From NCBI RefSeq assembly GCF_003987435.1, contig NZ_PIQG01000005.1:62001-126000 (forward strand): 64,000 bases of DNA. Direction: 5' to 3'. Of this stretch, positions 10,796 to 19,458 are shown piece by piece. A program made the position numbers and the translations under genes. Source of the DNA: Pseudidiomarina taiwanensis. GTDB taxonomy: Bacteria; Pseudomonadota; Gammaproteobacteria; Enterobacterales; Alteromonadaceae. The stretch's first letter is position 1. Every line of letters begins with the position of its first letter. The notes below the pieces were generated by a model that ran no database searches, was not told the DNA's origin, and saw nothing but the letters and a program-made list of their open reading frames with translations.

Positions 10796-10871
10796 GGCCC
10801 CTTAGCTCAGTGGTTAGAGCAGCCGACTCATAATCGGTTGGTCCCCAGTTCAAATCTGGGAGGGGCCACCA
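10796..10871 (+). tRNA. tRNA-Ile(CAU), the lysidine-modified isoleucine tRNA
   Basis: A 76-nt cloverleaf with encoded CCA. The acceptor stem is GGCCCCT/AGGGGCC, the D arm is TAGCTCAGTGGTTAGAGC, the anticodon loop is CTCATAA, and the T arm is CCCAG-TTCAAAT-CTGGG. The CAU anticodon with this acceptor and body resembles E. coli tRNA-Ile2, which needs TilS to read AUA, rather than either tRNA-Met. Its 3' half is repeated at 19415-19458, marking the gene as the attachment site of the island downstream. Confidence 0.93.
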
Positions 10872-10872
10872 T
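10829..10872 (+). repeat. Left copy of the 44-bp direct repeat, putative attL inside tRNA-Ile
   Basis: The 44 bases from the anticodon loop to one base past CCA are identical to 19415-19458. Duplication of a tRNA 3' end at the far side of an insert is the hallmark of integration by a tyrosine recombinase at a tRNA gene. Confidence 0.85.
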
Positions 10873-10984
10873 CTCCACTAGATTAGTGGTTGTATGGTAA
10901 ACAATTACTTACACTCTTTAAGTTTACTAGAAAAGTCTTAGGTTCCTAGCTTGGTAACCTTGGACAATTTGATTTTTTATGAGC

Positions 10985-11167
10985 TTACCAGTACAGCAGC
11001 CTCACTAATAATAGCGAATAGATCATAGTAACGGTATGCGCAAGGATGACTAGTCCGCCCGAATGCACCTGTGTTGTCACATCCGTGGCGAGACTGGTGA
11101 ACTCGGAGCTTTTTGAAAAAAGAGCCACCTTAAATACTAATGTGGCTATAAGCTGCTTATTGCCCAT
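10985..11167 (-). CDS. Possible small membrane protein in the island
   Basis: 60 codons from ATG 11167 with a hydrophobic C-terminus (LVILAHTVTMIYSLLLVRLL). It lies 19 bp after the TPR gene on the same strand, so it could be a third operon gene. No good ribosome binding site and no family that I recognise; it may be chance. Confidence 0.25.
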   Translation of the reverse strand: MGNKQLIATLVFKVALFSKSSEFTSLATDVTTQVHSGGLVILAHTVTMIYSLLLVRLLYW

Positions 11168-11186
11168 CACTCTGTTTTCTGAGCCT

Positions 11187-12101
11187 TTAGAGCGCAGCCA
11201 ATAGGTCATGTAAAGCACGGTCATTCGCTTGGCCGTGTTCCTCTGCAAGAGACTTGTAATGCCCAACAGCGTCATCGTTTTGGGCAAGGCTTTGTAGTTG
11301 CGCCATTCTCGCATAAGCCCATGCTATTTCAGGAATTTCAATGGCACTGTCGTATTCCTCTAGGTATTGCGTTAAAGCGTTAATACCTTCAACAATATTG
11401 TCTTCACTGAAGACCGCATTTCTTGCGATTTGATATAGACCATTCAAGTAAATATCGCGCTTGTCTTGTTGGAGTTGGGTCAGCTCTGCTGAACGCAGAA
11501 ACGCAGAATGTGCGTCGCTGTACTTTCCTTGTTCCTGCAGATTCAAACCGAGTCTTAATTGAACACCGGCAAATTCAGGATATTGCGTTGCCAAGCGCTG
11601 TAACTCGTCGCCATATTGGCGGGAATGAAACACATTGATAACACGTAAATGAGCGATAGCTCCGGCCTCTCGATTCAATTCCTGAATGTTAATTACTTCT
11701 TGTTTTGCTCGGTCTTCTCCGCCACCAACAATACCCGGCGCATTTAAGTAATAGTTAAATAGCGCCTCTCTGTATTGCAGGTTATCGGGTTCAATCGCTA
11801 CAGCTTGTTCTAGGCAGTTTCGGCTTTTTCCGGCAAATCTAATCGCTTTCATAAAACCTTCACTGGCGCGTAATCCGTAGATCATCCCGCAGTAATAATT
11901 CACTTTCGGGTTATCTGGAGCCAGCTCTAATGCTTGCTCCATATAGTTTTCCGCATCGCCAAGGAAATCTGGGAAGTGCGTTTCAATGTTTTCGATGAGG
12001 CTCTCAACGGAAGCCTCTTGAGTGTTGGCATGCAAACTTGAAGACAATACCAGTGCAATGGTTATCACACTCATTCTGAGGGGGAGTGTTAGTACATTCA
12101 T
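11187..12101 (-). CDS. Exported TPR-repeat protein
   Basis: 304 residues with a signal peptide (cleavage near LHA-NTQ). TPR-like helical repeats follow: AENYMEQALELAPDNPKVNYY, CLEQAVAIEPDNLQYREALF, a motif GIVGGGEDRAKQ, and ELQRLATQYPEFAGVQLRLGLNLQEQGKYSDAHSAF. Probably a periplasmic scaffold; no catalytic motif is seen. It is the second gene after the membrane protein at 12116-12868 with a 14-bp gap, and divergent from the two-component genes, so the sensor system may control it. No specific function can be given. Confidence 0.7.
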   Translation of the reverse strand: MNVLTLPLRMSVITIALVLSSSLHANTQEASVESLIENIETHFPDFLGDAENYMEQALELAPDNPKVNYYCGMIYGLRASEGFMKAIRFAGKSRNCLEQAVAIEPDNLQYREALFNYYLNAPGIVGGGEDRAKQEVINIQELNREAGAIAHLRVINVFHSRQYGDELQRLATQYPEFAGVQLRLGLNLQEQGKYSDAHSAFLRSAELTQLQQDKRDIYLNGLYQIARNAVFSEDNIVEGINALTQYLEEYDSAIEIPEIAWAYARMAQLQSLAQNDDAVGHYKSLAEEHGQANDRALHDLLAAL

Positions 12102-12115
12102 AATAATTTCTTGTT

Positions 12116-12868
12116 CTAAATATTTTTCTTTCCAACAGTTTTTGGAACTGTTGGCGGGTCATATTTTTTTGATAATTTAATGATAAAGAGCGTGCCGACA
12201 ATTCCTGGAGCTATCCATAGCGCGGTGTAGATTGAGCCAGTTGCGGAAAGCACTGTCGCAGCACCAAACACGATAAACGCGGTATAAGCTCCGATACCCG
12301 AGCCGATATATGCGCCAAGATGCTCGCGTAGCCATGCCTTTCTGGAGTAGTTTTGAGCGAAGATGAATTTCAGATTAGAAAAGCCAATCCAAAAGCCAAG
12401 CGCGCCAAAAGCGATGTGCAGAACCAGATTATTGAGAACGCCAACAATAGCAAGCGCCAATCCATTGAGGGCAAGTACAGCAAGAATCGTAATAAGATAT
12501 GGCTGCTTTAATCCACTATGGTTAGCTTTGTGGTTGAGAACCGCATTCCCATAGTAGATGGCACTATGAATTAAAATACTTAAATGCAGAAGAAACCACG
12601 CAAACAGTTGAGCGTACTCAACCCTAGCCTCGGCAAGATGAGGAACGGTGTAGAGTTCAGGTTTCACCACAGAGGTCAGTAGCAGTGTAAGAGTCGACAT
12701 TGCGATCCCCGTAAATGCCACCGTATTCATACTGAACCCGTAATACCGCCCAAACTTTTTGTGGTTCAAACTGCCTTTGCGAGTTAAGGCTGGAACCCAA
12801 AACAGCAAAAGCGATAATGAGCCCGCCAAGATATGGGTGAAAAGTAAACCCTGATAAAGATGTAACAT
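12116..12868 (-). CDS. Polytopic membrane protein, DUF2306-like
   Basis: 250 residues with about seven hydrophobic helices. The N-terminal part (YQGLLFTHILAGSLSLLLFW, then HKKFGRYYGFSM) has the conserved His and short polar loop of small heme-type or DUF2306-like membrane proteins; that family link is tentative. ATG 12868 is preceded by AGGAG; nine further in-frame codons upstream lack such a site. It heads an operon with the TPR gene and is divergent from the histidine kinase, with a 138-bp intergenic region that holds a perfect palindrome. It could be the transporter or sensor output of that system. Confidence 0.6.
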   Translation of the reverse strand: MLHLYQGLLFTHILAGSLSLLLFWVPALTRKGSLNHKKFGRYYGFSMNTVAFTGIAMSTLTLLLTSVVKPELYTVPHLAEARVEYAQLFAWFLLHLSILIHSAIYYGNAVLNHKANHSGLKQPYLITILAVLALNGLALAIVGVLNNLVLHIAFGALGFWIGFSNLKFIFAQNYSRKAWLREHLGAYIGSGIGAYTAFIVFGAATVLSATGSIYTALWIAPGIVGTLFIIKLSKKYDPPTVPKTVGKKNI

Positions 12869-12938
12869 GACAGTTCTCCTGTGTATGTTTAACAACAGGG
12901 GAAATAATATTTCTTATGACTTGACGATATCAGTGACG

Positions 12939-12952
12939 AAAGTCATGACTTT
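12939..12952. promoter_or_regulatory. 14-bp perfect palindrome, likely operator of the divergent region
   Basis: AAAGTCATGACTTT lies between the divergent membrane-protein and kinase genes. The half-site TGACTT recurs in direct orientation at about 12917 and 12958. A dimeric NarL/LuxR-type regulator encoded next door would bind such a site; this is inference. Confidence 0.5.
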
Positions 12953-13006
12953 GAACGTGACTTTTGGCCTATTGGAGTAAGCGTTCTAGCAGGGCATACT
13001 CAATAC

Positions 13007-14152
13007 ATGAAACGGAAAAAATTGAACTTTAAAATCACTTCTGATCAACTTAGTGGACTTGGTACCGTTGTCCTTGTCGGTGGTATCGATCTCTGGAGTC
13101 TGGTGACATTCCAAGATTTGTCACCAACGGTTATCTTTTCTTTGGCTTCTTGTTACTTCGTATTTGCGCTTTTATTTTCGCTCCTGACAAGTAACGACGA
13201 ATTGACGGGGAAGGACAAGACAACGTGGTTGCTCCTTATTGGTCAGTTCCTAGCCGTGAACTTAGTCATGTATATCTCTCCGAATATGTTCACTGCAATA
13301 CTACTAGTGATTTGGATGGCGCAATTGCCCTATATCATGCCATTCAAATTAGCCTTGTGGCTTTCACCATTATTGACGGCTATCGCCTGGTATAGCCACG
13401 CAATTGCGTGGGGAGGAGATACTCTAATTTTTAATGCATTACTCTTTTATTCCTTCAATATTTTTGCCATGTTGATGATGGAATCAAGAAGAAATGCGGA
13501 GTTTCAGACCGAGCGTGCTGAGCGAGGAAACCGGGAGCTCGTAGCGATGCAGTCGTTGATGCAAGAAGCGTCAAAGCAAGACGAAAGACTTCGAATTGCG
13601 CGAGATATTCATGACTTGGTAGGGCACCACCTGACGGCATTAACCCTACAGCTTCAGGTGCTCGGACGCACGGTTCCAGAGACGTCGAAGAAAGAAGTCG
13701 AGCAGACCCACGCTATCGCTAAATTATTACTAGCGGATGTTCGAGAGGCCGTGAGTGATATTCGCGAACACGACTATTTAGATCTGAAAGTAGCATTAAG
13801 TCAGATCAGCGAGCGTATTCAAGGCGTCAAAGTACTATTGGACATACCAGAGAGAGTCGCCGTTCTTGATTTAAAACAGGGTATGGCAGTGCTCAGAGGG
13901 GTCCAAGAAGCCATTACCAACTCCGTGAGACACGGCAGAGCGAATGAGGTACGCATTGAAGTCAGGCAAAATAAAGAGCTGCTGACTGTTTGCGTGGAAG
14001 ACAACGGCAGTAGTTCAAAGCCATTCATAGCCGGTAACGGTATTACTGGAATGACCGAACGTTTTGAACAATTACGAGGACATGTACAAGCGGGTCCGTC
14101 TGAAAAAGGCTTTGTTGTGAAATTAGTCTTGCCATTGATGAGGACGTCATGA
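13007..14152 (+). CDS. NarL/DesK-type sensor histidine kinase
   Basis: 381 residues. Five or six membrane helices fill the first ~150 residues. A short coiled coil leads to the HisKA_3 motif RIARDIHDLVGHHLTAL (phospho-acceptor His about residue 202). The ATPase domain has EAITNSVRHGRANEVRIEV, VEDNGSS and GNGITGMTERFEQLRG. The architecture is that of DesK-like kinases that sense membrane or small-molecule signals through their helices. The stop overlaps the start of the response regulator by 4 bases (ATGA). Its partner regulator is broken, so signalling through this pair is probably lost. Confidence 0.88.
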   Translation: MKRKKLNFKITSDQLSGLGTVVLVGGIDLWSLVTFQDLSPTVIFSLASCYFVFALLFSLLTSNDELTGKDKTTWLLLIGQFLAVNLVMYISPNMFTAILLVIWMAQLPYIMPFKLALWLSPLLTAIAWYSHAIAWGGDTLIFNALLFYSFNIFAMLMMESRRNAEFQTERAERGNRELVAMQSLMQEASKQDERLRIARDIHDLVGHHLTALTLQLQVLGRTVPETSKKEVEQTHAIAKLLLADVREAVSDIREHDYLDLKVALSQISERIQGVKVLLDIPERVAVLDLKQGMAVLRGVQEAITNSVRHGRANEVRIEVRQNKELLTVCVEDNGSSSKPFIAGNGITGMTERFEQLRGHVQAGPSEKGFVVKLVLPLMRTS

Positions 14153-14742
14153 GCGACACACATGTATATCGAGTCTTACTCGTAGATGACCAGATGCTCG
14201 TTCGCCAAGGCTTAAAGAGCTTGTTGTCACTTTCTCCCGAGATTGAGGTTGTCCATGACGTTTGCGATGGTGTAGAGGCAACCGAGTGGCTTAAAGTGCA
14301 TCAACAAGATATTGATGTAGTTCTTTTGGATATTCGAATGCCAAAGATGAACGGTATCGAGACGCTTAACGCGATGAGGCGGGAGGATATTGAGACACCT
14401 GTACTCATTTTGACTACCTTTAATGATCACGAATTACTGATTGATGCGCTTAAAGCCGGCGCAAAAGGCTACTTGTTGAAAGATGTTGAGTTAGAGACGT
14501 TGGTCAGTGGCATCCAGCGCGTCGTTCGCGGAGAGTCGATGATTCAACCTTCGATTACTACCCATTTACTTTCTGGGTTAAAAGACATGAAGTCTGATTT
14601 TGCGTCGTTTGAGCAACCGGAACCTCTCTCTGTAAAGGAAATTGAAATTCTTCGGTTAATGGCTTCGGGCTGTAGTAACAAGGAAATAGCCACTGCCTTG
14701 TTTAAGTCTGAGGGTACGGTAAAGAATCAGGTCAGTACCTGA
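14149..14742 (+). pseudogene. NarL/LuxR response regulator, 5' part, disrupted by the composite transposon
   Basis: The receiver domain is intact, with phospho-acceptor D61 in DVVLLDIRMPKMNG and conserved T and K residues in TTF and LLKD. The C-terminal HTH starts normally (LSVKEIEILRLMASGCSNKEIA) and breaks off after TVKNQVST, where the transposon introduces TGA at 14740-14742. The missing end is found at 18977-19055 after the transposon. Joined, the gene would be 222 codons. The truncated 197-residue product lacks about 25 residues of the DNA-binding domain and is probably unable to bind DNA properly. Confidence 0.88.
14730..14738 (+). repeat. Target-site duplication, left copy
   Basis: GGTCAGTAC immediately precedes the outer left terminus CTGAGGGATCCCC and is repeated at 18968-18976 after the outer right terminus. 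Nine bases is the duplication length of IS10-type elements. Confidence 0.85.
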
Positions 14743-16059
14743 GGGATCCCCTCGAATTTGACCATAGTATCAGCTCTTTTCCAGTTTGATGATACCCCAG
14801 TCAAACTCTGCTACCCAGAGCATGATTTGCTGCCTCGCCGCTTGTATCTCTTCTTCAGTCAATCCTGGCTGGGCGAGCTTACATAACCGCATTCCCAGAT
14901 AGTTGAACGACAATACGCGCCGGTGCTTGATGCTGTTAGCCTGAAACTGTAAGTGCTTCCCGGCCAGCTCTGCCGCCAGCCCTATCATGTAGTGCAACCA
15001 ATTTGCCAGTGCCGCCAATAGCAACAGCACTTCCAGCCGTTCACGTTTATAAGTACGGTGGGCTTCGCTACCTAAGCCATAGGTCTGGCTTTTCTGGTCG
15101 CGGAAGCTCTCTTCTATTTGCATGCGTTTGCCGTAGCATTTGGCAATCTTCGTCGCGTAACCGAAGCAATTGGGCAAGGATGAGACCAACAACCACGGCT
15201 CTTTATATTGCTTGTGTTTGTCGGATTTTCGCAGCTTCCAACCGGTGCCCACCAGCACGGCTTGAGTGCGATATTGCTGGGCTTTGGTCAGCTGAACTTC
15301 ACCCAATAGCTGCGGCGTGGAGCGCGCCTTTTTATACACTTTTGCCACGGTGACAAAGTCATTTTGTCCAGGCAGTTGCAGTGTCTGGTTGCCACGCACT
15401 CTGGCAATGTAGTGCCAGCCGAGCTTACGTATTTGCTTAAACCACGGCACTTTAAAACCAGCATCGGTAATAATCACCGGCTTAAAATCTGCTGGCAGTA
15501 CCTGCTTTAATCGGTGTAAAAACGCCTTGTGTACGTGCGGACACGTATACTCGTCCATCGGTGCGACCACCTGATGTAACGTCAGCGGGCGACCTTCCAG
15601 CGCCAGGCTGGCACGCAGGATAAAATGGCGCTTTTCTGTGTCGGCATTGCTCCAGTCCACTAAAATCAGGGGCTGTTTGCCTTGACGTAGCAAGCGGGTC
15701 ATTGCGGCATAAATAAGCGGCGCCTCTGCTTGCAGCGCTTCATTTCTTAACAAACGGTCAGCCCGCTTGATGCCGTGTTTTTCTGACGTTTCACTGTCAA
15801 AATCACGGCCGATAGCCGTTACCGTGCATTGACCATTCTGCATCAAGCTTTGTACTGCCGCCCCCAAAGCTAAAAACCGGGCTTTGTGCATATATTTTGG
15901 GGTGACAAATGAGAGGAAATCGGCGAGCATTGTTTTTACATTCATGGCGGCACTCATGGTTTGAGAGTTTTGGCGAATGATCTGATCGGGAACTGCCATG
16001 AATGTTCCCTTCGCCTCTAACTATTTGTTTTATTTATGCCATTCGTGGGGATTCGTCAG
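14739..16059 (-). mobile_element. Left IS element, IS4 family, IS10 group
   Basis: 1321 bp. Terminal repeats are CTGAGGGATCCCC at 14739 and, reversed, CTGACGAATCCCC at 16059. It encodes one transposase on the reverse strand. Only the left terminus contains GATC, the Dam site also found in IS10 termini. A second pair of GATC sites lies near the transposase start. Confidence 0.85.
14770..15945 (-). CDS. IS10-group transposase of the left IS
   Basis: About 391 residues from MNVKTML; an upstream in-frame ATG at 15999 would give 409. The DDE catalytic motifs of the IS4 family are present: VDWSN, ITDAGFK and [17 protein letters not shown] (the Glu lies in the YREK-like helix). Further family motifs include [11 protein letters not shown] and FQANSIKHRRVLS. 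It looks intact. It performs cut-and-paste transposition. I prefer the MNVK start because the right-hand IS also starts with MNVR and loses frame alignment upstream of it. Confidence 0.88.
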   Translation of the reverse strand: MNVKTMLADFLSFVTPKYMHKARFLALGAAVQSLMQNGQCTVTAIGRDFDSETSEKHGIKRADRLLRNEALQAEAPLIYAAMTRLLRQGKQPLILVDWSNADTEKRHFILRASLALEGRPLTLHQVVAPMDEYTCPHVHKAFLHRLKQVLPADFKPVIITDAGFKVPWFKQIRKLGWHYIARVRGNQTLQLPGQNDFVTVAKVYKKARSTPQLLGEVQLTKAQQYRTQAVLVGTGWKLRKSDKHKQYKEPWLLVSSLPNCFGYATKIAKCYGKRMQIEESFRDQKSQTYGLGSEAHRTYKRERLEVLLLLAALANWLHYMIGLAAELAGKHLQFQANSIKHRRVLSFNYLGMRLCKLAQPGLTEEEIQAARQQIMLWVAEFDWGIIKLEKS

Positions 16060-16061
16060 AC

Positions 16062-16130
16062 ACGTCAGCTACCTTTATTGCATCATTCGTAGCACTTGCT
16101 GGCACATTCTTACTGTCTTACATCGTATAA
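16062..16130 (+). pseudogene. C-terminal tail of a membrane protein, truncated by the left IS
   Basis: An open frame begins at the inner edge of the left IS and encodes 22 residues that look like one transmembrane helix (ASFVALAGTFLLSYIV) before TAA. dsdA starts 12 bp later. The arrangement suggests that an amino-acid or DsdX-like permease gene preceded dsdA in the source operon. The fragment is too short to name its family. Confidence 0.5.
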
Positions 16131-16142
16131 CAACAAGGTATT

Positions 16143-17474
16143 ATGATGACTACTAACATTGATCAACTTACCGAACAATATCCGCTGGTAAAAGAACTTA
16201 TCGAGCTAAAGGAGATAGCTTGGTTTAACCCGTCCATCACCAACCTTGAAGAGGGTTTACCCTACGTCGGACTGGGTGCTGAGAACATTCAAGATGCAAG
16301 TGAACGGCTAAAAAGATTCGCTCCTTACCTTGCAAAAGCATTCCCGGAAACAGCCAAAACTGGCGGGATTATTGAGTCTGAAGTGGTTAGTATTTCAGCA
16401 ATGCAAGATGTAATTGAGCGTGAATACAGCACCAAAATACAAGGTCGATTGCTACTGAAAAAAGACAGTCACTTACCAATTTCGGGCTCAATTAAAGCTC
16501 GAGGTGGGATCTATGAAGTCCTGACACACGCTGAAAAACTAGCTATGGAAGCAGGATTGCTTACTGAGTCAGATGACTACAGCAAGTTATTTAACGAAGA
16601 ATTTCGTGATTTCTTTAAACAGTTCAGTGTTGCTGTGGGCTCTACCGGAAATCTGGGGATGTCTATTGGGATTATGAGTGCCAAATTAGGTTTCTCCGTT
16701 TCCGTTCATATGTCAGCCGATGCAAGAGAATGGAAGAAAAACAAACTTCGCTCTCATGGCGTCAATGTTGTTGAATATGAACAAGACTACGGTGTTGCTG
16801 TGGCTCAGGGTCGCAAAGAAGCCGAAAACGACCCGACTTGCTTTTTCATTGATGACGAAAACTCGCAAACCCTATTCTTAGGGTATTCGGTTGCTGGTGA
16901 GCGCCTCAAGAAACAGTTCGATGAAAAAGGTATTTTGGTAGACGCGCAGCACCCTCTATTCGTTTATCTACCATGTGGCGTTGGTGGGGGCCCCGGTGGT
17001 GTTGCATTCGGCCTGAAAATGGCTTTTGGTGACAACGTTCATTGTATTTTTTCTGAGCCGACACATTCTCCATGTATGGTGCTAGGCGTTCATACCGGAT
17101 TGCACGACGAAATAAGTGTTCAGGATATTGGTATTGATAACATTACCGCTGCTGATGGTTTGGCTGTAGGTCGTGCTTCTGGTTTTGTAGGCCGAGCAAT
17201 GGAAAGATTATTGGATGGTTATTTCACTGTCACTGATGAACGCATGTACCGATTACTGGGTCAACTGAGTGAGTCTGAAGACATCCAGCTTGAGCCTTCG
17301 GCATTAGCTGGCATGGTAGGGCCGGTAGTGGTAACAAATGATGGTGATTATAGAAAGCGAATGCAGTTCGACGACACCATTATGAGTAAAGCCACACATC
17401 TAGTTTGGGCTACGGGTGGCGGCATGGTGCCAGAAGCTGAAATGTCCTCTTACCTGGAAAAATCTGGTCTTTAA
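16143..17474 (+). CDS. dsdA: D-serine dehydratase (D-serine ammonia-lyase)
   Basis: 443 residues. The PLP enzyme converts D-serine to pyruvate and ammonia through 2-aminoacrylate. The PLP lysine is K118 in [12 protein letters not shown], the same number as in E. coli DsdA. The phosphate-binding glycine loop is [16 protein letters not shown] and the motif [18 protein letters not shown] is intact, so the enzyme appears functional. It is the only complete cargo gene of the composite transposon. No dsdC regulator is present, so expression may depend on a promoter near the left IS end. A strong hairpin follows the gene. Confidence 0.95.
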
Positions 17475-17487
17475 TCAATAAATTGTT

Positions 17488-17511
17488 GGCAATCTGCTTT
17501 GGCGGATTGCC
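17488..17511 (+). terminator. Hairpin between dsdA and the ridA fragment
   Basis: GGCAATCTGC and GCGGATTGCC pair over 10 bp (one G-U) with loop TTTG. There is no T-tract, so it may be an mRNA-stabilising intercistronic hairpin rather than a terminator. Confidence 0.5.
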
Positions 17512-17534
17512 TCTATGTGTAAGGAAAATCATTC

Positions 17535-17633
17535 ATGAAGACAAAAGTTCATACAGGGCACGCTCCCGCAGCTATCGGACCTTATGCACAAGGTATTATT
17601 CATAACAGCGTTATCTATACTTCGGGTCAGCTC
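17535..17633 (+). pseudogene. ridA: ridA fragment, 3' part removed by the right IS
   Basis: 33 residues ([18 protein letters not shown], then IYTSGQL) match the N-terminus of RidA/YjgF/Rid proteins, which normally have about 128 residues. The IS begins exactly after SGQL; reading on through the IS gives an unrelated tail to a stop at 17738. RidA hydrolyses 2-aminoacrylate, the toxic enamine made by DsdA, so the pairing with dsdA is functional rather than chance. The fragment lacks the catalytic Arg region and is inactive. Confidence 0.85.
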
Positions 17634-18967
17634 CTGAGGGATCCCCACGAATTTAGTCCCCGCATTCAATGTTGTAACTCGTCGTATCCAGCAAGTGTTT
17701 ACAGTGGCGCAAGGTGTTGCGCCACTGTGTTGTTGTAAACACCACCCGTTTGACCATGGCTCTTAACCCCAGGGTGTGAAACGACAAGACTCGTCTGTCA
17801 CGATAACTGTTTGCCTGGAACCGGCGCTGCTGATTGGCTATGGTCAGCCCTACACCGAGCAATATCAATACTAATGAGGCTAAATTGCTCAGCAGTAGTA
17901 ACAGGCTTATGCGGTGTAGTTTGGTACTGCCATTTTGCTCAAAGCCCAGACCATACTGAGTACTTTTCATATCTCTGAAGCTTTCTTCTATCTGCATGCG
18001 CTGCCGGTAAATCGATACTACCTGCTTGCTGTGATGGCTGCTTTGCGGCAGGTTAGAAGCAAGTAGCCATGGCTCTGTGTTTCCTCTGGCGTGTATTTTG
18101 GAGGCTCCTGAACGTTTCATGCTGCCATCCGCATTACGTAAATGACGACCTTTGCTTTTTTGCTTGTACAACGTCAACAAGCAGGCAAACGGTTTGTACC
18201 GTGCAATCTGTGCCTGATATTGCTTCGGTTGTAGCGCTGCTTCGGCAAATAACCTGCTAATACACTGCCAGTTTGCACCATTATCAGTGGTATAAAAATT
18301 CGGCTTACGTACCCGACCGACAAAGTACCAGCCTAATGCTTCAATTTGCCTGAACCAGGGTGCTTTAAAGCCTGCATCGGTGACGATCACCGGTTTACAC
18401 TTTGCTGGCAGTAGCTGAGACAACGTCTGTAAAAACAGCTTATGAACTGCCGGTTTTTCTTTTGTACCCAGTGGATGAACCTCCTGGTACAGGGTGATAG
18501 GCCGACCATTGAATGTCAGCACTGCCCGCAGTAAAAAGTGTCTGCCGGCTTCATCCAAATCAGACCAATCTATGCTTATCGTTGGGTGTTTGGCAGTACA
18601 AAACAAGCGACATACGGCTCCGTAAATTAACGTCTGCTCACGCAGTAAATGCGTATTAGACAGCAGCCTGTCAGCCCGCTTAATGTTATGTTTTTCAAAG
18701 GCATTAGAGTGAATCCCCCGGCCAATACTGGTTACGGTAGCGGCACTGCCGTTTGCGAGGCTATGCACGCAATCAATTACGGCTTTTCGTCTGGTAACAT
18801 GCATTTTGGGTGTGACAAATGAAACGATATTGGTCAAGATAGCGCGAACATTCATGGCAGTTTGGGGTTGGTGATTTTTGGCGATTGATCTGATCACCGA
18901 ACGCCATGAATGTTCCCTCCGAGTTCATCTTTTTGTTTTAGCTGATAATTTTGTGGGGATACCTCAG
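17634..18967 (-). mobile_element. Right IS element, IS4 family, IS10 group
   Basis: 1334 bp, with ends CTGAGGGATCCCC at 17634 and, reversed, CTGAGGTATCCCC at 18967. Its left flank in ridA is GGTCAGCTC and its right flank GGTCAGTAC, so it is not flanked by its own duplication. It is related to, but clearly different from, the left IS. Confidence 0.85.
17653..18855 (-). CDS. IS10-group transposase of the right IS
   Basis: About 400 residues from MNVRAIL (IS10 transposase has 402). Motifs are [30 protein letters not shown] and [18 protein letters not shown], with [13 protein letters not shown] near the N-terminus. A GTG at 18897 would extend it in frame, but the conserved ATG near the terminus (18907) is out of frame here, unlike in the left IS. 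It looks intact and, with the outer ends, could mobilise the composite. Confidence 0.88.
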
Positions 18968-18976
18968 GGTCAGTAC
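18968..18976 (+). repeat. Target-site duplication, right copy
   Basis: GGTCAGTAC, identical to 14730-14738. Removing one copy and the transposon restores the response regulator frame. Confidence 0.85.
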
Positions 18977-19055
18977 CATCATGGCGAAACTAGGAGTAAG
19001 AGACCGAACTCGGGCTGTGTTAAGAGCTATCGAGCTCGGTCTGTTAGCTACTTAA
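18977..19055 (+). pseudogene. Response regulator, 3' part beyond the transposon
   Basis: The codons for IMAKLGVRDRTRAVLRAIEL, then GLLAT and TAA complete the LuxR-type HTH that stops at 14738. The recognition-helix end and dimer contact residues lie here. Together with 14149-14738 it makes one 222-codon gene. No start codon or ribosome binding site makes this part expressible alone. Confidence 0.85.
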
Positions 19056-19071
19056 TGTTGTTCTTGAGCTA

Positions 19072-19374
19072 TTAGGTCGTCCATTTCACTTTCAAGTTTC
19101 GCACTCTCATTGACCCGCGGCTTCGCATACCGATAGCCCTTTGTCGCAAAGTTTGGTCGGCAAACTCAATAAATAGAATAGAGTTCTTCGCTAGAAGGTC
19201 GATCAGCATGACAAGACCAATTTGCGAATAGATATTGATACAGTTGTCATTTCTAAAAAGGGCGAATAGTGCAGCAGCGATACCTAAAGGAACGGTAATC
19301 ATAACGACAATGGCACTGTTTACACTCTCACCTTGTGCCGCATCTGGTAGAAGAATTTCTTCAGGCTTATAGGC
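19072..19374 (-). pseudogene. RND efflux pump remnant
   Basis: About 100 codons are open, bounded by stops on both sides. They contain VVMITVPLGIAAALFALF, NIYSQIGLVMLIDLLAKNS and ILFIEFADQ, which match the late transmembrane region of AcrB/MexB-type RND pumps (usual protein about 1030 residues). The remaining parts of the gene are absent. After FADQ the sequence drifts away from the family. A decayed passenger of the island. Confidence 0.75.
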
Positions 19375-19414
19375 TTAACGATCCATAAAGTCCAAAGTTA
19401 CGTCGTCGAGGCCC

Positions 19415-19458
19415 CATAATCGGTTGGTCCCCAGTTCAAATCTGGGAGGGGCCACCAT
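19415..19458 (+). repeat. Right copy of the 44-bp direct repeat, putative attR
   Basis: Identical to the tRNA-Ile segment 10829-10872. It starts in the anticodon loop and runs through CCA. The six bases just before it are GGCCCC, the same as the first six bases of the tRNA, so this end may be a tRNA copy with an internal deletion rather than a simple attR. It ends 4 bp before the OsmC-YcaO stop codon. Confidence 0.85.

Follow-up and report, generated by a model that had tools for sequence, protein, structure and literature searches.

Two different IS10-subgroup elements enclose a Vibrio-type dsdA gene in a composite transposon that was probably moved whole into a response regulator gene of Pseudidiomarina taiwanensis

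We analyzed a 64,000-nucleotide stretch of the Pseudidiomarina taiwanensis genome (contig NZ_PIQG01000005.1, positions 62,001 to 126,000; referred to as the window), in which two insertion sequences (IS), here called ISL and ISR, enclose dsdA, the gene for D-serine ammonia-lyase. The unit spans window positions 14739 to 18967 (4229 bp) and consists of ISL (1321 bp), a cargo segment of 1574 bp (16060-17633) and ISR (1334 bp), in this order. Immediately outside it, at 14730-14738 and 18968-18976, lies the 9-bp direct repeat GGTCAGTAC. The coordinates of the unit and of the duplication had been proposed in a first-pass annotation of this DNA and proved exact when the sequence was read again. The features are listed below.

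14149-14742, plus strand: response regulator gene of the NarL/LuxR type, interrupted; the final codons fall within ISL and the 3' remainder is at 18977-19055
14730-14738, no strand: left copy of the 9-bp target duplication GGTCAGTAC, read from the sequence
14739-16059, minus strand: ISL, IS10 subgroup, 1321 bp; transposase open reading frame (ORF) 14770-15999, 409 amino acids, YREK motif intact (NF033591, 326 bits)
16060-16142, plus strand: 3' end of a permease gene (gluconate/D-serine type) and the short gap before dsdA, from the alignment with Vibrio cincinnatiensis locus L005
16143-17474, plus strand: dsdA, D-serine ammonia-lyase, intact, 443 amino acids (TIGR02035, 742 bits; PDB 3ss7)
17535-17633, plus strand: 5' part of ridA, truncated by ISR; aligns with an intact 128-amino-acid ORF after dsdA in L005
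17634-18967, minus strand: ISR, IS10 subgroup, 1334 bp; transposase ORF 17653-18897, 414 amino acids, YREK motif intact (NF033591, 304 bits)
18968-18976, no strand: right copy of the 9-bp target duplication GGTCAGTAC, read from the sequence

The transposase ORFs of ISL and ISR both lie on the minus strand, so the two elements are in direct orientation. Their transposases (TnpL and TnpR, respectively) share about 42 to 44% amino acid identity, and the two are therefore different elements. These results agree with the earlier description of two different IS10-group elements in direct orientation with 1.57 kb between them; only the term "nested" was a misnomer, as ISL and ISR lie side by side and neither is inside the other. 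The 9-bp duplication had also been reported to surround the pair and neither IS alone, and this is what we found. ISL alone is flanked by GGTCAGTAC and ACACGTCAG. ISR alone is flanked by GGTCAGCTC and GGTCAGTAC, which match at 7 of 9 positions, a resemblance that the first-pass annotation did not mention. The GGTCAGCTC copy to the left of ISR is ordinary ridA coding sequence (Ser-Gly-Gln-Leu, also present in V. cincinnatiensis) and not a decayed duplication; its resemblance to GGTCAGTAC fits the target preference of ISR-type elements described below. The locus thus has the structure of a composite transposon, with two ISs around a cargo and a target duplication that flanks the pair but neither IS singly.

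The gene into which the unit is inserted provides the decisive test. When the flanks are joined at one copy of the 9-mer, they encode a complete 222-residue response regulator with the usual LuxR-type C-terminus, ending in NQVSTIMAKLGVRDRTRAVLRAIELGLLAT and a stop codon. The present-day ORF halts after 197 residues, within the GerE DNA-binding domain. We compared this position with the 11 best of 19 loci fetched from other genomes (L086-L096; 51 to 73% identical), and it was uninterrupted in all 11. The read-through of the regulator and the uninterrupted relatives indicate that the 4.2 kb entered as one insert and that the 9-mer is a real target duplication, an argument that does not depend on whether the 9-mer is rare. 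The earlier suggestion that the whole unit transposed as one is thus supported by the regulator, which reads through across the unit. The visible effect of the insertion is the predicted loss of the DNA-binding end of the regulator.

The cargo resembles part of a Vibrio operon. DsdA scores 742 bits against TIGR02035 (cut-off, 368) over its full length, and its residues 5 to 440 align with the D-serine dehydratase of PDB 3ss7 (E = 1e-218). Among the best 80 of 404 confirmed loci, its nearest relative is that of V. cincinnatiensis, with 93% amino acid identity. From the permease 3' end to the start of ridA, the cargo is colinear with the V. cincinnatiensis operon at 85% DNA identity. In L005, this operon is uninterrupted and consists of the permease gene, a 12-bp gap, dsdA and ridA, including the ridA stretch that is cut by ISR in the window; the permease 3' ends are 94% identical over 81 bp. 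The name of the permease comes from a reading of its translation alone, and that of ridA from the first-pass annotation and a reading of the sequence. As that annotation had stated, dsdA is the sole intact cargo gene, the permease gene and ridA being present as fragments. The comparison of dsdA between the window and V. cincinnatiensis gave a ratio of nonsynonymous to synonymous substitution rates (dN/dS) of 0.04 with a dS of 0.87, indicating that the gene was constrained during most of that divergence; the capture stays undated by this ratio.

Among the genomes of the genus compared, P. taiwanensis alone has a dsdA over the family cut-off, as a single copy. None of the 25 other genomes of the genus encodes a DsdA above the family cut-off, and one (G005) has a weak sub-threshold match; in the control for this search, 6 of 14 control genomes were matched, 2 of them over the cut-off. 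In the wider family, dsdA was detected in 6 of 395 genomes (E <= 1e-60), and the other five all belong to one other genus (58 to 75% identity). Judging from this distribution and the Vibrio affinity, dsdA is most likely foreign in this genome. The native dsdA that the first-pass annotation had named as the case against its own model is not what these genomes suggest.

The promoter of the native operon presumably lies upstream of the permease gene and would hence have been lost from the unit. The end of ISL at which its transposase gene starts adjoins dsdA. As an outward promoter of ISL for dsdA, we found one promoter-like site against 0.9 expected, overlapping the dsdA start codon, and rejected this candidate; a looser promoter scan returned weak candidates only. 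No RNA-OUT or other Rfam RNA matched within the unit up to E = 1. DsdA may be made and useful in this host.

We assigned ISL and ISR using the published features of the IS10 subgroup of the IS4 family. According to PMC2266710, these are a length of 1200 to 1350 bp, a single ORF, ends that begin with CT, a 9-bp duplication and a YREK motif of the form Y(2)R(3)E(6)K. At 1321 and 1334 bp, ISL and ISR carry one transposase ORF each; CTGA starts all four IS ends, and the YREK motif is found at residues 289-303 of TnpL and 297-311 of TnpR. Both proteins score above the cut-off of 152 bits of NF033591, an IS4-family model. The 9-bp duplication is seen around the composite and, in exact form, around single ISL-type and ISR-type relatives: a relative 87.5% identical to ISL on a Klebsiella plasmid has its own duplication and confirms the ISL ends, and a full-length relative of ISR (75%) in genome G364 likewise carries its own. 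The possibility that the inner end of ISL (CTGACG) had decayed was rejected, as the same end is present in the relatives on the plasmids and in genomes G364 and G486. By length, ends, YREK motif and 9-bp repeats, ISL and ISR are both classified, on sequence features, as IS10-subgroup elements. No solved structure near TnpR was found by sequence up to E = 1.

Two observations on relatives of these elements are recorded here. The ISL relative of 87.5% identity, with the duplication ATTGCTGGC, lies between an ABC-F gene and the gene for a BCCT transporter on Klebsiella and Escherichia coli plasmids (L135, 6001-7319; L136, 3001-4319). It is near an ISVsa3-type element, with tet(X4) just beyond in the Klebsiella record. 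In L212 (326 and 1680), an ISR-type element has the flanks GGTCAGATC and GATCTGACC, which are reverse complements where direct repeats would be expected; inversion of the element, or of the DNA around it, would give such a pattern.

The insertion sites of such relatives bear on which transposase moved the unit. Flanks were collected from 73 loci, which had been selected for similarity to the ISs irrespective of the flanking sequence; 54 loci gave 56 rows and 19 gave none. The two rows of the window itself were left out, as were two rows of L248, a single locus called under both types. The type of each IS was set by its best transposase score. Of the 52 insertions assigned to a type, eight had flanks that disagreed with each other and were dropped (3 of 17 ISL-type, including the nearest relative, L240, and 5 of 35 ISR-type), leaving 14 ISL-type and 30 ISR-type insertions, which were merged into distinct targets when their 9-mers were identical or reverse complementary. 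Among 23 distinct ISR-type targets, GGTCAG was present exactly in 10 and within one mismatch in 18, whereas the 13 distinct ISL-type targets had it in neither form (Fisher P = 0.006 for exact matches and 7e-6 for one mismatch). Without merging, the counts were 17/30 and 25/30 for the ISR type and 0/14 and 0/14 for the ISL type. For comparison, 0.9% of all 9-mers in the window are within one mismatch of GGTCAG. The motif is absent from the dropped ISL-type flanks and present next to two of the five ISR-type insertions that were dropped, on one side or both. No published description of GGTCAG as an IS10-subgroup target was found in a literature search covering part of the matching papers.

The composite follows the ISR pattern. 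Its duplication and the ISR/ridA junction both contain GGTCAG; the ISL/permease junction, ACACGTCAG, is five mismatches away. The motif was present in 8 of the 10 near relatives of ISR (at least 70% amino acid identity to TnpR over the stretch available), and in all eight it is oriented as in the composite and at the ridA junction. The ends of the two elements agree with this. The outer end of ISL is identical to the equivalent end of ISR at 20 of 21 positions; the outer end of ISR resembles the ISL end that it would have to replace for the transposase of ISL at 15 of 21. Together, GGTCAG at the duplication and the 20/21 match suggest, as the simplest account, that TnpR mobilized the unit with the end of ISL substituting for its own. 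In a separate case, L195 (1501-1737), two left ends of the ISR type are separated by 236 bp, with the same 9-mer, GGTCAGGTT, before each; the same target was apparently used twice.

We consider it probable (roughly 80%) that the unit is a composite of two different IS10-subgroup elements with Vibrio-type cargo, moved whole by the transposase of ISR into the regulator gene. Starting from the established anatomy, duplication and read-through, the likely foreign cargo and the intact transposase motifs, the events may have been as follows. In a donor with a Vibrio-type permease-dsdA-ridA operon, ISL would have entered the permease gene near its 3' terminus, and ISR would have entered ridA at GGTCAGCTC. 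The transposase of ISR would then have paired the outer end of ISR (5' of its gene) with the outer end of ISL (3' of the ISL gene), and the 4229 bp would have inserted into the GGTCAGTAC site of the host regulator, producing the 9-bp duplication and the broken gene. Elements of both types are found together in a different genus of this family (genomes G364, G649 and G547). The capture may thus have happened in such a host, which would previously have received the Vibrio DNA.

Several points weigh against this account. The GGTCAG rule was recognized in the same data that were used for counting, and sites within one genome are not independent. Some distant members lie near the middle between the two types (43 versus 44%), and the counts lack the 8 of 52 classified insertions with disagreeing flanks and the 19 of 73 loci that gave no row. 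Most near relatives of ISR are fragmentary, 6 of 10 covering 22 to 101 codons. Moreover, of the ISR-type insertions below 70% amino acid identity (n = 20), 7 have the orientation of the composite and 10 the opposite one; a fixed target orientation would at most be restricted to the near kin of ISR.

The occurrence of the unit belongs to the same side of the balance. It is single in its own genome, where a search with the ISL transposase matched ISL and ISR only, and it is present in none of the 25 other genomes of the genus, of which G014 has ISL relatives at 65%. The order (394 genomes, at least one match in 126) and the genus of V. cincinnatiensis (227 genomes, at least one match in 115) gave partial matches to the unit only, in searches that scored two first-look candidates per genome and may have missed copies. 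No record in the plasmid, E. coli and phage collections covered 80% of the unit; the plasmids and the E. coli genomes had one record each (near mode), over ISL alone at 87.6%, and six phage records matched parts of the unit at 60 to 80%. Neither inner junction had an exact match in viral contigs. The first-pass annotation had proposed looking for the unit in other genomes or replicons and for the source operon with each IS singly; neither was found in the collections searched. Likewise, we found no donor locus with both ISs, and 0 of 129 other dsdA loci (DNA from 3.2 kb up, many with short flanks; L005 and L111 being one and the same) carries such a transposase; relatives of DsdA are present in 186 plasmid records, the best at 78%. 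With one copy found at one site, repeated movement as a unit was not seen. The single copy lowers the proof of present activity and leaves the reading of a past event intact.

The main competing explanation accepts the same composite but has it moved by the ISL transposase, or by both transposases together. Neither ORF is truncated and both encode the YREK motif, and ISL-type elements do transpose singly with 9-bp duplications. However, all 13 distinct ISL-type targets lack GGTCAG, the junction of ISL itself with the permease gene is five mismatches from the motif, and TnpL would need to act on an ISR end that is only 15/21 like its own. We regard this explanation as unlikely.

The remaining explanations differ on how the unit arose. 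ISR might have entered the regulator alone, with its duplication, before ISL and the cargo were added by recombination or deletion. The GGTCAG preference makes a lone ISR at this site plausible, and the two ends in L195 hint that a target may be reused. This sequence of events is nevertheless very improbable, as the left copy of the duplication abuts the ISL end exactly, ISR is preceded by ridA sequence and not by a second GGTCAGTAC, and the two elements, at about 42% amino acid identity, are too dissimilar for simple homologous exchange. For two independent IS insertions next to a native dsdA, we found no supporting point. The read-through of the regulator across 4.2 kb contradicts this explanation, the absence of an above-cut-off dsdA from all 25 other genomes of the genus and the nearest relative in Vibrio also speak against it, and its probability is negligible. 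Movement of the whole unit by the ISR transposase is thus the reading that we retain.

The unit and its target gene lie in a larger insertion region, bordered by the following features.

10796-10871, plus strand: tRNA-Met (CAT), which borders the island on the left
19415-19457, plus strand: 43-nucleotide copy of the 3' part of tRNA-Met, which borders the island on the right; L172, L179 and L186 have related fragments

The tRNA-Met gene and the 43-nucleotide copy bracket the region and support the earlier label "tRNA island". In G014 and G001, the tRNA is within 0.7 kb of a YcaO-type gene next to rpoD. Of 21 stretches compared, 16 have the full tRNA and the YcaO-type gene at varying distances, two (L179 and L186) have a tRNA fragment only, and three (L164, L180 and L181, the last of which begins at a contig end) are without the tRNA and rpoD. 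L172 has the full tRNA and a 48-nucleotide fragment about 7.6 kb apart. Given the varying spacing and the 3' tRNA fragments across the genus, the site at tRNA-Met, with rpoD and the YcaO-type gene on either side (window 10872-19414; L162-L181 and L186), appears to be a hotspot for islands in this genus. No counterpart of the kinase/regulator pair of the window was detected in those 21 stretches (tblastn, E <= 1e-8). The Rfam Plastid-ycf2 model matched below its gathering score at 10796-10869 and 19410-19455 on the minus strand, which looks like a spurious tRNA-like match.

Among the closest known systems is Tn10, in which two IS10 elements surround tetracycline resistance. The unit described here shares with Tn10 an outer pair of IS10-subgroup elements, a 9-bp target duplication and one cargo segment moved as a unit; unlike Tn10, its ISs differ (about 42% amino acid identity), they are in direct orientation, and the cargo is catabolic. 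The target core of IS10 is NGCTNAGCN, and the core found here, GGTCAG, is different. A limited literature search, consisting of listings and the starts of abstracts, found nothing directly comparable among composites of two different ISs. There is precedent for dsdA in mobile DNA. In TRIS degradation clusters, dsdA is part of an IS-bounded catabolic segment proposed to have once been mobile as a composite transposon; there, dsdA is one gene of a multigene pathway and the ISs are mostly incomplete (PMC10848231). In the unit, by contrast, dsdA is the sole complete cargo gene, and both the ends and the duplication are preserved. In E. coli, dsdCXA is located within tRNA-linked pathogenicity islands at leuX and argW; these hold more than dsdA alone, and no two-IS composite is among the features described in the accessible part of the source (PMC7545054). 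The first-pass annotation had called dsdA as transposon cargo inside a tRNA island unusual. In light of these two papers, dsdA has precedents both between ISs and in tRNA-linked islands, and the unit is a sound, slightly unusual case of a familiar kind.

The composite transposon is a known kind of element, represented here by two nonidentical IS10-subgroup members. What is new is the apparent GGTCAG-like target preference of the relatives of ISR, without such a preference in the relatives of ISL. More generally, an IS10-subgroup clade common in this family may target GGTCAG, with its near-ISR members in one orientation, and its transposase may be able to use the end of an IS about 42% identical to move the intervening DNA, the duplication then serving as a fingerprint of the driver; we hold this broader proposal at even odds. 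The locus is a clear-cut example of one catabolic gene brought by a two-IS transposon into a genus otherwise without it, in a setting outside the usual antibiotic-resistance cargo. If the ISR transposase was indeed the driver, composites would not need two copies of the same IS, since a similar end on a distant relative would suffice. The range of mobilizable DNA would then be wider, and surveys for identical flanking ISs alone would miss such units.

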